This document shows positions 9,548 to 54,846 of a stretch of DNA of 64,000 nt, in pieces (within the stretch, counting starts at the first letter, position 1; every line of letters begins with the position of its first letter). A program made the translations under genes and the position numbers. The stretch comes from Peteryoungia algae. GTDB lineage: Bacteria > Pseudomonadota > Alphaproteobacteria > Rhizobiales > Rhizobiaceae. The notes under the pieces were generated by a model, which saw only the letters and a list, made by a program, of their open reading frames with translations, was not told the origin of the DNA and did not search any database. The DNA lies in contig NZ_CP128477.1 of assembly GCF_030369675.1 (NCBI RefSeq), positions 2,046,001 through 2,110,000 on the forward strand. The letters run 5' to 3'.

Positions 9548-10339
9548 TCAGCCGAGACGATAGAGGCCCGGCCGCCGGTCAATCAGATAGGGATTCTGCG
9601 CCTTCGCATCGTCATAGGCTGTGGGATCGATCTCCGCGACCAACAGCGTTTCGCGCATGCCGGCCCGGGCCAGTTCGTCACCGTCAGGAGCGAGGATCAC
9701 CGAACGTCCGCCATAGGACAAGCCATTTTCCGTGCCACAGAGATCGGCATATACGAGGAAGACGCCGTTCTCGAAGGCGCGTGTCGGCACAACCGTATCG
9801 GCGACCCGCCGGCTGATGATGCCCTCAGGCAGCGCCGTCGGCACCAGGATCAGTTCGGCGCCGGCAAGCGCCAGCGTCCGTACATTTTCGGGAAACTCGA
9901 CATCGTAGCAGATCAGCATGCCTGTCTTGATGCCATTCAGATCAAAGACATGCGCGGCCTCCGAACCCGGTACGAAGGCCTCCCTTTCCGCCTCGCCATA
10001 GAGATGGCTCTTTCGATAGAACTCCGTGCTGCCGTCGGGTCGGACGAGCACCGAGGAATTGAACACCTGACTGCCGTCACGCTCCGGAAAGCCGGCGCAG
10101 ATCGCAAGCCCGCAATCAGCGGCAATCTCGGTGAGCGCTTCGATGATCGACCCGTCACGCCCTTCCGCGACCTTCTCGAACGCAGCACCCAGCGCATAAC
10201 CGCTGGTGCCGAGCTCGGGCGTCACGAGGAGCTCAGCTCCCATTTCCGCTGCCGCAATGGCCGCCTGTGCAATCTTGCCGATATTGCCCGGGACGTCGCC
10301 CGAGAGCGGTTGCATTTGATAGAGCGAAATCAGCATCAT
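9548..10339 (-). CDS. Carbon-nitrogen hydrolase (nitrilase superfamily)
   Basis: 263 aa, starting at 10339 or one codon later. The Glu-Lys-Cys triad is visible: the glutamate in VTPELGTSGY, the lysine in FYRKSHL and the cysteine in MLICYDVEFPE. It hydrolyses a C-N bond of an amide or carbamoyl substrate in the cytoplasm. The sequence resembles aliphatic or (R)-amidases more than nitrilases. No operon partner indicates the substrate. Confidence 0.85.
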   Translation of the reverse strand: MMLISLYQMQPLSGDVPGNIGKIAQAAIAAAEMGAELLVTPELGTSGYALGAAFEKVAEGRDGSIIEALTEIAADCGLAICAGFPERDGSQVFNSSVLVRPDGSTEFYRKSHLYGEAEREAFVPGSEAAHVFDLNGIKTGMLICYDVEFPENVRTLALAGAELILVPTALPEGIISRRVADTVVPTRAFENGVFLVYADLCGTENGLSYGGRSVILAPDGDELARAGMRETLLVAEIDPTAYDDAKAQNPYLIDRRPGLYRLG

Positions 10340-10494
10340 GCACCTGTATGCCACGGAGGTTGAAACCAAAGGTTAGAGCCGCTTGCCTAGCGGAGGCAAG
10401 CGGCAACTCCAAGGCAGACGAAGAGCAGTTGCCTTTCTCGTCTTCAACCTTATCTTCAGGCAATGGAACACGTAATCAAAGCCGACCTCTTCTG

Positions 10495-10983
10495 ATGGCC
10501 TTTATCGTCACGGGCGCCATCGCCTTGCTGCTGATCGAGCTCTTCCTCAGGCGCCGCCCTTGGGCGATTGCGCTTACCGCATTCGTCGCCGTCGTTGGTA
10601 CGGCCGTCTGGCTCTTCAGTGCCGATCAATCTCGCCAGCAGCAGAATGCAGTCTCCGCCGTGACAGTAACGGTAGCCGCTGACCCGACGGTCTGTGTGGA
10701 TCCGCAATTGCCGATCGCTGCAACCATCACCAATGCGTCGGGCCAAGCAGTCAACCGCCTGTCCTTCGATCTGATCGGACGAGAGCCGGAAGAAACGCGC
10801 GTCGCCTATCGCGGAACCCTTCGCCACAACGGGCCGCTCGCGCCTGACGAAGCCATGACGCGGTGTTACGCTCTGCTCTTTCACGGGTTCGCCCATCCAC
10901 GTCCCCAGATCGTGGATGCGACGAAATACGAATGGACGGCGCATGTCTCTCTGGTCGGCTTCGGCGAGGCACCGGTCGAGTGA
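10495..10983 (+). CDS. Hypothetical membrane-anchored protein
   Basis: 162 aa from the ATG at 10495. Two hydrophobic helices lie near the N-terminus (about residues 1-17 and 22-41), followed by a domain with beta character and two cysteines (TVCVDPQL, MTRCYALL). The pattern suggests a periplasmic immunoglobulin-like domain held to the inner membrane. I do not recognise the family. No clear ribosome site precedes this ATG; a TTG at 10429 is an alternative start. Confidence 0.55.
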   Translation: MAFIVTGAIALLLIELFLRRRPWAIALTAFVAVVGTAVWLFSADQSRQQQNAVSAVTVTVAADPTVCVDPQLPIAATITNASGQAVNRLSFDLIGREPEETRVAYRGTLRHNGPLAPDEAMTRCYALLFHGFAHPRPQIVDATKYEWTAHVSLVGFGEAPVE

Positions 10984-52295: not shown

Positions 52296-53153
52296 TCAGT
52301 TGGCAGTCGTCGTCGCCCCGTAGGTCACACCCTTTTCCTTCAGCCAGCGGCGATAGGCGATCGAGGATGCATCTGCCCGTGTCGGGATTTCCTTGCGCGG
52401 CTCAAGTGGCAGGAGCACCGGCCGCTGGTTTTCCAGAATGATCCGGTCCTGCAGGAAGATCATCTGCTGGAAATGGATGAGCTCTGTCGTCGTCGACACG
52501 TCGTCGATCAGATACATGATCGGATGTGCCCGGCAACGGCCCGGATCGAGCGGCTGGACGAAGAGGCCGATGACATCCCAGCGATTGGCCGCATTCGGGC
52601 AGGTCTTGTAGAGGATCGTCGTAAACGGCGTCATCACCCGGTACATGTATTGCGTGGCAATCCCATCCTGCGCGGACAAGGCGGCCTGTGGCTGGAAGAA
52701 GGTGCAGTTCGTCGCCCAGACCTCGTCCTCCTCACGCCGGATCTCGACGTCATAGCTCTCCACTTCCGTGTGCGGCTCAGCGCCAAGCACATCCGTATGC
52801 ACGAACGGGAAATGCGCCATGTCGAGAAAATTCTCGACGATCCGCAGACCGGACGCCTTCACCGTCACCACGCCGCAAGGGACGTAGCGGCGATCTGGCT
52901 CGTCGGCCTCGGGCAGCGGAAAGATCTCACGCTCCGGCTGGCCGAGCGTCGCCCAGAGAAAGCCGAAGCGATGACGGATCGGCAGCGCATGAGGACGTCC
53001 TTCCGCAAAGACCTCGATCCCCCCGTCCGCCTGTTTGACGACTGTTAGATCCGTTCCGAGCAGCCGGTTGCCCGACACCCCCACCGGAATGACCGTCTCG
53101 GTATCGAGCACATACCATTGGTCGAGCGAAGCCTTGTCAATTCCGTCCTGCAT
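52296..53153 (-). CDS. Rieske-oxygenase-like protein lacking the Rieske cluster
   Basis: 285 aa. The N-terminal strands (DQWYVLDTETVIPVG, NRLLGTDLTVVKQADGG) and the whole C-terminal catalytic domain of a ring-hydroxylating oxygenase alpha subunit are present, including the iron-binding NFLDMAHFPFVH (Asp-x2-His-x4-His, with the bridging aspartate) and FLQDRIILENQRP. The segment that should carry CxH and CxxH is absent: EVFAEGRPHA runs straight into LPIRHRFGFLW. The frame is intact. A detached Rieske protein is encoded divergently at 53549. Substrate unknown. Confidence 0.8.
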   Translation of the reverse strand: MQDGIDKASLDQWYVLDTETVIPVGVSGNRLLGTDLTVVKQADGGIEVFAEGRPHALPIRHRFGFLWATLGQPEREIFPLPEADEPDRRYVPCGVVTVKASGLRIVENFLDMAHFPFVHTDVLGAEPHTEVESYDVEIRREEDEVWATNCTFFQPQAALSAQDGIATQYMYRVMTPFTTILYKTCPNAANRWDVIGLFVQPLDPGRCRAHPIMYLIDDVSTTTELIHFQQMIFLQDRIILENQRPVLLPLEPRKEIPTRADASSIAYRRWLKEKGVTYGATTTAN

Positions 53154-53270
53154 GGATCAGTCTTTCCTCTGGAGCAGGGGAGAAAGCACTTGAACCCCTA
53201 TCTCGTCGCCCGCTAGATTGCCCAAAAATTAGAGCGCGCACAATTGCAAGGCAACACTGATCCCCATCCG

Positions 53271-53552
53271 ATGACGCCGAAGACCGGCGAGACGACGGTC
53301 GGCTTCACCTTTTCCGGTAGGCTGGAACCGGCTGGTTTCATCGCCTTTGCCGAGCACCGCGCAGCACGACTGTCGCTCGGGCTCGCTATCAGCGCTTGCG
53401 ACAAAGAGCACTGTCGCCTGACCCTGTCAGGACCGGAGGCGCTGATCGACGCCTTCGAGATGGCCGCAAGCCTCGGCCCCTATGACAGCATCGTGCTCGA
53501 CGTGACCCGTTTCTCTCCGTCAAAAGACACGCCCGAAAAGGCCCCATCATGA
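53271..53552 (+). CDS. Degenerate acylphosphatase-like protein
   Basis: 93 aa from the ATG at 53271; a TTG at 53244 is possible. The pattern SGRLEPAGFIAFAEHRAARLSLG, LTLSGPEALIDAFEMA, LGPYDSIVLDV follows the acylphosphatase fold (strand-helix-strand). The catalytic arginine of GxxQGVGFR is missing, and no clear active-site asparagine follows, so it is probably not an active acylphosphatase. Its stop overlaps the Rieske gene at ATGA. The fold call is by eye. Confidence 0.55.
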   Translation: MTPKTGETTVGFTFSGRLEPAGFIAFAEHRAARLSLGLAISACDKEHCRLTLSGPEALIDAFEMAASLGPYDSIVLDVTRFSPSKDTPEKAPS

Positions 53553-54220
53553 CATCAGCTTCTGCCTGGATCCCCGTTGCTCTCTCCGCCGACATCGAAG
53601 CCGGCACCTCCGCGGGCACGCTCGTCAACGGCGAGGAACGCGTCGTCTGGCGCGACGAGAAGGGCGAAATACATGTCTGGGAGGACCGTTGTCCGCATCG
53701 CGGCATGCGCATGAGCTTCGGCTTCGTGCGCGGCGACCACATCGCCTGCCTCTATCACGGCTGGCGCTACGATACCGGCGGACAGTGCCGCCACATTCCG
53801 GCCCATCCCGATCTGGAGGTGCCCAAGACCATCAAGGTCCCGACCTTCGCCGCCATCGAACGCGCCGGCATCGTCTGGATGGCGTGTGAAGGCGCCGACC
53901 CGGCCAGCCTCGCCGGATTGCCGGGAAGCGGCGAACCGGTCCGCAGCCTCTTCCTCGAACTGTCAGCAAATGCGGCGCTGCTGGCGGTGACGGCAGCCCC
54001 GCCCGAAGGGTATCGTCCCGTTCCAGGGGCTTCCGGCACGGTGACCCTGCAAGGCAATGAGGGGAGCGTGTTGATCGCTGCCCAGCCCCGCGATGCCGGA
54101 CGGACAGCCTTGCACATCACGGTGTCCGACGACACCTCCGCTGCCACCCGCCGCAGCCTCGCGCTCTGGGCTGCCGACCTGCGCAACCGCATCGAGGCTC
54201 AGGCCATGGAGGCGGCATGA
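53549..54220 (+). CDS. Stand-alone Rieske [2Fe-2S] domain protein
   Basis: 223 aa. The cluster site is complete: CPHRGMRMSFG to ACLYHGWRYD gives Cys-x-His-x16-Cys-x2-His, the oxygenase-type spacing. After about residue 120 the sequence does not match an oxygenase catalytic domain: it has a short alanine-rich tail and no His-x4-His motif. It sits in a gene set divergent from an oxygenase that lacks exactly this domain, so it may supply electrons to it. A ferredoxin role is the simpler alternative. Confidence 0.82.
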   Translation: MTSASAWIPVALSADIEAGTSAGTLVNGEERVVWRDEKGEIHVWEDRCPHRGMRMSFGFVRGDHIACLYHGWRYDTGGQCRHIPAHPDLEVPKTIKVPTFAAIERAGIVWMACEGADPASLAGLPGSGEPVRSLFLELSANAALLAVTAAPPEGYRPVPGASGTVTLQGNEGSVLIAAQPRDAGRTALHITVSDDTSAATRRSLALWAADLRNRIEAQAMEAA

Positions 54221-54846
54221 TGATCAAACTTTACGACTACCACCTCGACGAAAACGGCTTTCGCGTCCGCCTCCTCCTCTCCATGCTCGGCCTCGCCGTC
54301 GAGACCGTTGCCGTCGACAAGGCACCGGGCCGCGAGCAGGAAAAGCCGCATATGCTGGCGCTCAACCCGACCGGCACGCTGCCTATCCTCGAAGACGGAG
54401 AGGTCAGGCTCTTCGGTACAGCCGCAATCCTTGCTTATCTTGTTCGCGCCCACGCGCCGGATAGCCCCTGGCTGCCGGCAGATCCCGCCGATTTCGGTCG
54501 TGTCCAGCAATGGCTGGGCTTTTCCGGCCGCGAGCTGAAGCCCGCAATCGACGCCCGCGAGGCGGCCCTCTTTACCTCGGAAGGCGCAAGCGACTGCGAC
54601 CTCAAGGCCGCGCGCAAAGCCTTCCGCATCATGGAGGAGCACATGACGCTGCGGCAGATCGACGGCGCAGGCTGGTGTGTCGGCGACACCCCGACGCTTG
54701 CGGATCTCGCGCTTTTACCGAGCTTTGCGCTCTCGCGCGACTGCGGCATCGATCACGATGAATATCCCGCACTTCGTCGCTGGCTGCGCCGCTTCCGCGC
54801 ACTACCGGGCTTCATCACCATGCCAGGCGTACCGGATTACCACTGA
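54217..54846 (+). CDS. Glutathione S-transferase family protein
   Basis: 209 aa. Thioredoxin-fold N-terminus (KLYDYHLDENGFRVRLLLSMLGL), the glutathione-site turn LNPTGTLPIL and the SNAIL-like FGTAAILAYL are visible; the C-terminal helical domain ends with GDTPTLADLALLP. It overlaps the Rieske gene by 4 bp, so it is in the same operon. The substrate is unknown; conjugation of, or protection from, oxygenase products is a reasonable guess. Confidence 0.88.
   Translation: MMIKLYDYHLDENGFRVRLLLSMLGLAVETVAVDKAPGREQEKPHMLALNPTGTLPILEDGEVRLFGTAAILAYLVRAHAPDSPWLPADPADFGRVQQWLGFSGRELKPAIDAREAALFTSEGASDCDLKAARKAFRIMEEHMTLRQIDGAGWCVGDTPTLADLALLPSFALSRDCGIDHDEYPALRRWLRRFRALPGFITMPGVPDYH

Follow-up and report, generated by a model that had tools for sequence, protein, structure and literature searches.

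Rieske oxygenases normally carry both metal centres on one protein, and inter-subunit electron transfer in these enzymes is hard to test cleanly when each chain holds both metals. Can the two centres be divided between separate chains and serve a single enzyme? This question is raised by two divergent genes, here called P1 and P2, in Peteryoungia algae (assembly GCF_030369675.1, contig NZ_CP128477.1, positions 2,046,001-2,110,000, forward strand), a stretch of 64,000 nt that we call the window and in whose own positions the features are given (Table 1). P1 encodes the iron site of an oxygenase and P2 a Rieske site, and a gene for a glutathione S-transferase (GST)-like protein adjoins P2. We consider it probable that P1, P2, and the GST-like protein form one enzyme in which electrons flow from the P2 cluster to the P1 iron. 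If this is true, donor and acceptor lie on different chains, and each can be mutated, labelled, or titrated alone.

Opposite metal sites on two chains

The sequence-only reading from which this work started had described the minus-strand gene as keeping the mononuclear-iron motif and the N- and C-terminal frame of a ring-hydroxylating oxygenase, with the cluster-binding CxH...CxxH segment cleanly missing in frame, and each part of that description held. P1 matches the Pfam catalytic domain VanA_C (E 1.2e-23), while the same Pfam search matched no Rieske family in it. D111, H114, and H119, together with N108 and D236, are unchanged in 42/42 aligned sequences; D236 is presumably, as in the family, the third iron ligand, and D111 would, by its position in the motif, be the bridging Asp. 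When profiles of 42 P1 and 41 P2 sequences were compared, P1 residues 9-52 aligned with the beginning of the Rieske domain of P2, and residues from 53 onwards with its end (Prob 91.7, E 7.9e-7), leaving P2 residues 48-95, the cluster-binding lobe, opposite a 48-residue gap. Because this gap is flanked by matching ends of the Rieske fold, the lobe was lost cleanly and in frame. The iron motif is present in 110/110 P1 copies and the Rieske motif in 0/110, counted among copies picked by similarity to P1 (the window included, some genomes represented twice, and matches with <180 matched residues excluded). Against seven close relatives, the ratio of nonsynonymous to synonymous substitution rates (dN/dS) of P1 is 0.039-0.067, indicating strong purifying selection.

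The partner gene lies 395 bp away, close to the ~400 bp first estimated from two divergent open reading frames (ORFs), both of which were found in place, and a third small ORF occupies part of the gap. P2 matches the Rieske family PF00355 (E 1.2e-24), and the Rieske motif occurs in 98/98 P2 copies and the iron motif in 0/98; its dN/dS against the same number of close relatives is 0.171-0.209. The complete Rieske site ascribed to this 223-aa protein is thus confirmed, with all four ligands invariant. The accompanying claim that P2 has no catalytic domain stood in part: the iron motif is indeed absent, but the predicted structure retains a shrunken, metal-less oxygenase catalytic domain in the tail, with 217 of the 223 P2 residues aligning to residues 5-289 of GxtA. 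Profiles of P2 tails scored 29.5 against the catalytic part of P1 when all tails were used, 25.7 with free tails only, and 33.4 with fused tails only, whereas none of 40 controls made by shuffling the columns of the all-tail set exceeded 15.4; against the catalytic parts of full-length oxygenases, the tails reached only 13.2-19.0, and the best BLASTP piece of the tail had an E of 0.045. We rejected the tail as an unrelated domain on the larger-set profile score, which lies above the controls, and on the structure match, which is the stronger evidence. No reductase domain is attached to P2, which ends at 223 aa.

Neither chain therefore combines both motifs as a classical alpha subunit does (no Rieske motif in any P1 copy, no iron motif in any P2 copy), while the two-domain Rieske and catalytic fold of such a subunit is predicted to be kept in both. 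We infer that the ancestors of P1 and P2 were complete oxygenases, each of which lost the site that the other kept.

Table 1. Features of the P1/P2 locus, in window positions
Feature	Position	Strand	Basis
P1, NdmC-like cluster-less oxygenase subunit	52296..53153	-	285 aa ORF
P1 D236, presumed third iron ligand	52446..52448	-	invariant 42/42 aligned
P1 iron motif N108-x2-D111-x2-H114-x4-H119	52797..52832	-	sequence; invariant 42/42 aligned
P1 junction (residues 52-58), cluster-binding lobe missing there	52980..53000	-	48-residue gap vs P2, profile alignment
Divergent intergenic region, P1 / P2 operon	53154..53270	.	gene positions
Small acylphosphatase-like protein, 93 aa	53271..53552	+	match in 68/80 named loci
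P2, free-standing Rieske subunit	53549..54220	+	223 aa ORF
P2 Rieske site C48-x-H50 ... C67-x2-H70	53690..53758	+	invariant 41/41 aligned
P2 residues 120-223, predicted shrunken catalytic domain without iron motif	53906..54217	+	structure match and profile score
GST-like protein, 209 aa, NdmE-like	54217..54846	+	GST domains

Company of P1, P2, and the GST-like gene

The earlier proposal that the two proteins work together, to be checked by their co-occurrence across genomes, is supported by the company they keep, and homologs that rarely meet were not the pattern seen. In a family sample of 199 genomes (P1 match threshold E <= 1e-20), 43 match P1 and 44 match P2; in all 43 P1-bearing genomes, P2 shares a contig with P1 and lies no more than about 10 kb away, and the 44th P2 match, in G030, proved to be a full-length oxygenase carrying both motifs. 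At the class level, 6/289 genomes match P1 and P2 adjoins it in 6/6, with 18 more genomes matching P2 alone and weakly (E 1.8e-23 or worse) through ORFs of 350-739 aa that are presumed to be ordinary oxygenases. The order-level sample has 43/249 P1 matches, 4 of them full-length with both motifs and 39 split, and P2 is present in 39/39 of the latter; at the phylum level, 8 of 23 matches among 398 genomes are full-length and 15 are split, again with P2 in 15/15. For these two samples, which share some genomes, 56 loci were fetched to cover every match new beyond the family set. Among the best 80 of 567 loci in a scan of named genomes, some of them cut by contig ends, P2 and GST matches occur in 78 and an acylphosphatase-like (ACYP-like) gene in 68.

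Together, 160 loci were assembled (the window, 20 family loci of which 19 come from the 43 P1 genomes, 80 named, 3 plasmid, and 56 order/phylum loci; some genomes occur twice), holding 157 distinct P1 and 131 distinct P2 sequences. Cluster-less P1 is found in 147/160, accompanied by P2 in 143/147 and by a GST match in 142/147. The 13 loci with only full-length oxygenases carrying both motifs have a GST match in 0/13, one of them (L170) being just 5.8 kb long. In the four split loci without P2 (L087, L091, L135, and L119), P2 is elsewhere in the genome or record. L087 and L091 belong to Mesorhizobium sp. BR1-1-16 and Kaistia dalseonensis, named-genome loci for which P2 was recovered at a distance (E 3.6e-53 and 6.9e-58, respectively); in both genomes that P2 adjoins another P1, 72% identical to the window's, so each has one P2 and two P1 genes, with the second P1 on another contig. 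The idea that the two genes co-occur even where they are not neighbours was given up for this reason. The genome of L135 has its P2 in L134, and in L119 P2 spans the start of a circular plasmid record, where it is annotated as a 136-aa Rieske protein with the Rieske motif and no iron motif; GST matches in L119 are broken into pieces in different frames, and L158 misses the GST only. In the plasmid locus L188 (NZ_CP036516.1 140000-152258), GST and BMP matches near P2 are split across frames, and this copy of the cluster may be decaying.

A predicted two-chain enzyme and its rivals

In the ring of a Rieske oxygenase, PMC12445004 gives a cluster-to-iron distance of ~12 Å between subunits as against 45 Å within a chain, and PMC5033481 describes a conserved Asp bridging the cluster and iron of neighbouring subunits. 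Since the working contact in the ring is between subunits, one functional interface would be restored if P2 met P1 in the usual manner, with P2 as donor and P1 as acceptor, and the invariant P1 D111 would couple the two centres. P2 is assumed to be reduced by a reductase acting in trans; the genome's best match to a reductase that follows the operon in one relative (L017) lies at 2230228-2231127 (E 9.7e-36), near another, full-length oxygenase, which it may serve. The GST-like protein would act as a scaffold and not as an enzyme. Catalytic glutathione S-transferases have a Glu-Ser pair in the glutathione site, and the window's protein has Gly-Thr in its place; the pair is kept in 1/15 aligned GST-like sequences, and the two top-ranking PDB matches have it. 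Its loss is in keeping with a scaffolding function such as the one suggested for NdmE of NdmCDE, the methylxanthine N7-demethylase complex of Pseudomonas putida CBB5, which acts on 7-methylxanthine. As substrate, we would guess at an N-methylated purine or a similar N-heterocycle, from NdmC and from purine-type neighbours in relatives.

Several observations weigh against this model. The structural support comes from single-chain predictions, in which the iron-helix stretch of P1 is modelled at low confidence, and the tail-only match of P2 to P1 was weak in the first sequence set (hhalign Prob 11%, E 0.0027). A reductase match was sought in the window and not found, and none occurs in the best 80 of the 567 named loci. 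The window lacks the purine-type genes that adjoin the locus in relatives, and a genome search for two of them gave just 33-34% identical relatives, far away. Not all copies are intact, as a class-level P1 copy (G367) carries an internal stop codon. Finally, no genome was found with P1 and P2 but no P1 near P2, and a shared pathway could by itself account for the co-occurrence of the GST and P2 genes with P1, without any contact.

Other readings of the pair were considered against the same evidence. We regard it as unlikely that P2 diffuses freely as a Rieske ferredoxin, passing electrons to P1 (and perhaps to other oxygenases) in short-lived encounters and never joining it in a stable hetero-oligomer. 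The Rieske ferredoxins of naphthalene dioxygenase-type systems are ~100 aa and serve oxygenases that have their own Rieske cluster; they are lone domains without the shrunken catalytic domain, unlike P2 with its 223 aa. Since the whole length of P2 aligns with oxygenases, we rejected a plain ferredoxin as a full account of it. It is considerably less probable still that P1 is no longer an oxygenase (a sensor, a binding protein, or some other iron protein), with P2 serving a different enzyme and the neighbourhood merely inherited. P1 has lost the centre that normally feeds it, the activity of either protein is a prediction, and P2 always being found with a P1 beside it is compatible with shared inheritance. 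Yet the iron residues and the bridging Asp are invariant, purifying selection on P1 is strong, P1 is 51% identical over 253 residues to NdmC (P0255, M1EY73_PSEPU), a working N7-demethylase subunit of the caffeine pathway, and P1, P2, and GST stay together in three different gene orders.

A clean internal deletion in a single genome can look like an artefact of sequencing or assembly, or like a decaying pseudogene pair, but the chance of either is negligible here: the same two forms recur across all the distinct P1 and P2 sequences of the 160 loci, and the 110 P1 copies checked have 0 internal stops, which, together with the low P1 dN/dS, led us to reject a pseudogene or frameshift, the class-level stop in G367 being noted above. 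The pairing of P1 with P2, though a prediction, is well supported.

Gene arrangements, origin, and known systems

In the window, the stop of the small ORF overlaps the P2 start and the P2 stop overlaps the GST start, both as ATGA, so that the three genes look translationally coupled, with P1 divergent. The GST-like gene had gone unmentioned in the sequence-only reading. The small ORF has an SLGP-D motif; PF00708 was weakly matched by 7/12 aligned members (best E 2.8e-4), while the window's own copy gave no acylphosphatase match in that search. Beyond the GST gene lie a D-2-hydroxyacid dehydrogenase and an enoyl-CoA hydratase family protein, which accompany the locus in some relatives only (dehydrogenase match in 9/80 named loci).

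Three arrangements recur. In A, P1 is divergent from ACYP-P2-GST. The window and its nearest relatives have a short form of it, and in many relatives the locus is part of a ~17 kb cluster that also holds a BMP-type ABC transporter, an adenine-deaminase-like protein, two sulfopyruvate decarboxylase-like subunits, a GMC oxidoreductase, and amidohydrolases; several such clusters contain a second P1. L012 (1753-17427) and its kin have two P1 genes, one P2, and a deaminase-like amidohydrolase among the cluster genes, and such clusters probably encode a catabolic pathway for a purine-like compound. In B, P2-P1-GST form a single operon (e.g., R. etli CFN42 p42c), followed in L017 and L018 by a separate reductase. 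In C, P1 (two copies in some loci) is accompanied by a Rieske-reductase fusion and, in most cases, a GST (e.g., S. meliloti 1021 pSymA), which is the NdmCDE arrangement. Further, L070 combines a single GST and a single P2 with a diverged pair of P1 copies (63% and 40% identity). The L178 locus, which gave no reductase match, has a P2-type Rieske domain (~10140-10727, minus strand) within a 627-residue open frame, possibly another fusion. The nearest full-length oxygenases (L169-L172 and L180-L187; 31-43% identity, both motifs) may represent the ancestral single-chain enzyme; 10/12 of these loci adjoin BMP-type ABC transporter genes, a transporter type also seen in split clusters.

The P1 trees drew on a set of 44 sequences, cut down from 157 with a 72% identity filter that deliberately spared some. 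One tree covered 45 split and 14 full-length proteins, with the full-length rows L177 and L026 left out; in it, the split proteins including NdmC occupy one side of one branch (support 100/99), and a tree without NdmC and with 16 full-length rows gave a Shimodaira-Hasegawa-like approximate likelihood ratio test (SH-aLRT) value of 99. The split thus likely arose once. The P2-side tree (56 short rows, 123 columns, with 40 P2 rows from the P1-tree loci) separates the full-length rows by one branch (SH-aLRT 91, not starred) and the reductase-fused ones by another (96); free P2 rows, the window's included, lie apart from these save one (L178) and form no single group (2 changes). We lean neither towards nor away from a fuller scenario, in which an oxygenase was duplicated, one copy lost the cluster lobe and the other the iron site, the obligate mixed particle was locked by a GST with a lost active site, one Rieske subunit came to serve two catalytic subunits in the larger clusters, and this old and widespread design includes NdmCDE as its reductase-fused branch.

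Compared with known systems, SxtT and GxtA have both metal sites on one chain, unlike P1 and P2, and the NdmA/NdmB heterohexamer (alpha3 alpha'3) is among the closest. The identity of P1 to cluster-less NdmC makes a split Rieske oxygenase an already known kind, and the locus shares with NdmCDE an NdmC-related cluster-less iron subunit, a Rieske domain on another polypeptide, and a GST-like partner gene, here a candidate NdmE counterpart that overlaps P2. According to PMC4408171, the Rieske domain of NdmCDE is fused to a reductase (NdmD) and the complex is described as very unique. The window differs in that its Rieske protein is free, P1 is divergent, and no reductase match accompanies them, and its P2 sits on a different branch from the reductase-fused rows. 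Within a limited literature set, we recognised no description of the free-standing Rieske form, the complementary decay, the family breadth, or the tie between GST and split. If the proposed enzyme is real, a broad family, with P1 in 43/199 sampled genomes of this bacterial family, includes NdmCDE as a single branch, and proteins now named ring-hydroxylating dioxygenase alpha subunits in public records can be better annotated. In our judgement, the locus goes beyond NdmCDE in four respects: its Rieske subunit stands alone, this subunit is predicted to be an oxygenase decayed in the complementary way, the family is broad, and a GST-like gene is tied to the split state.
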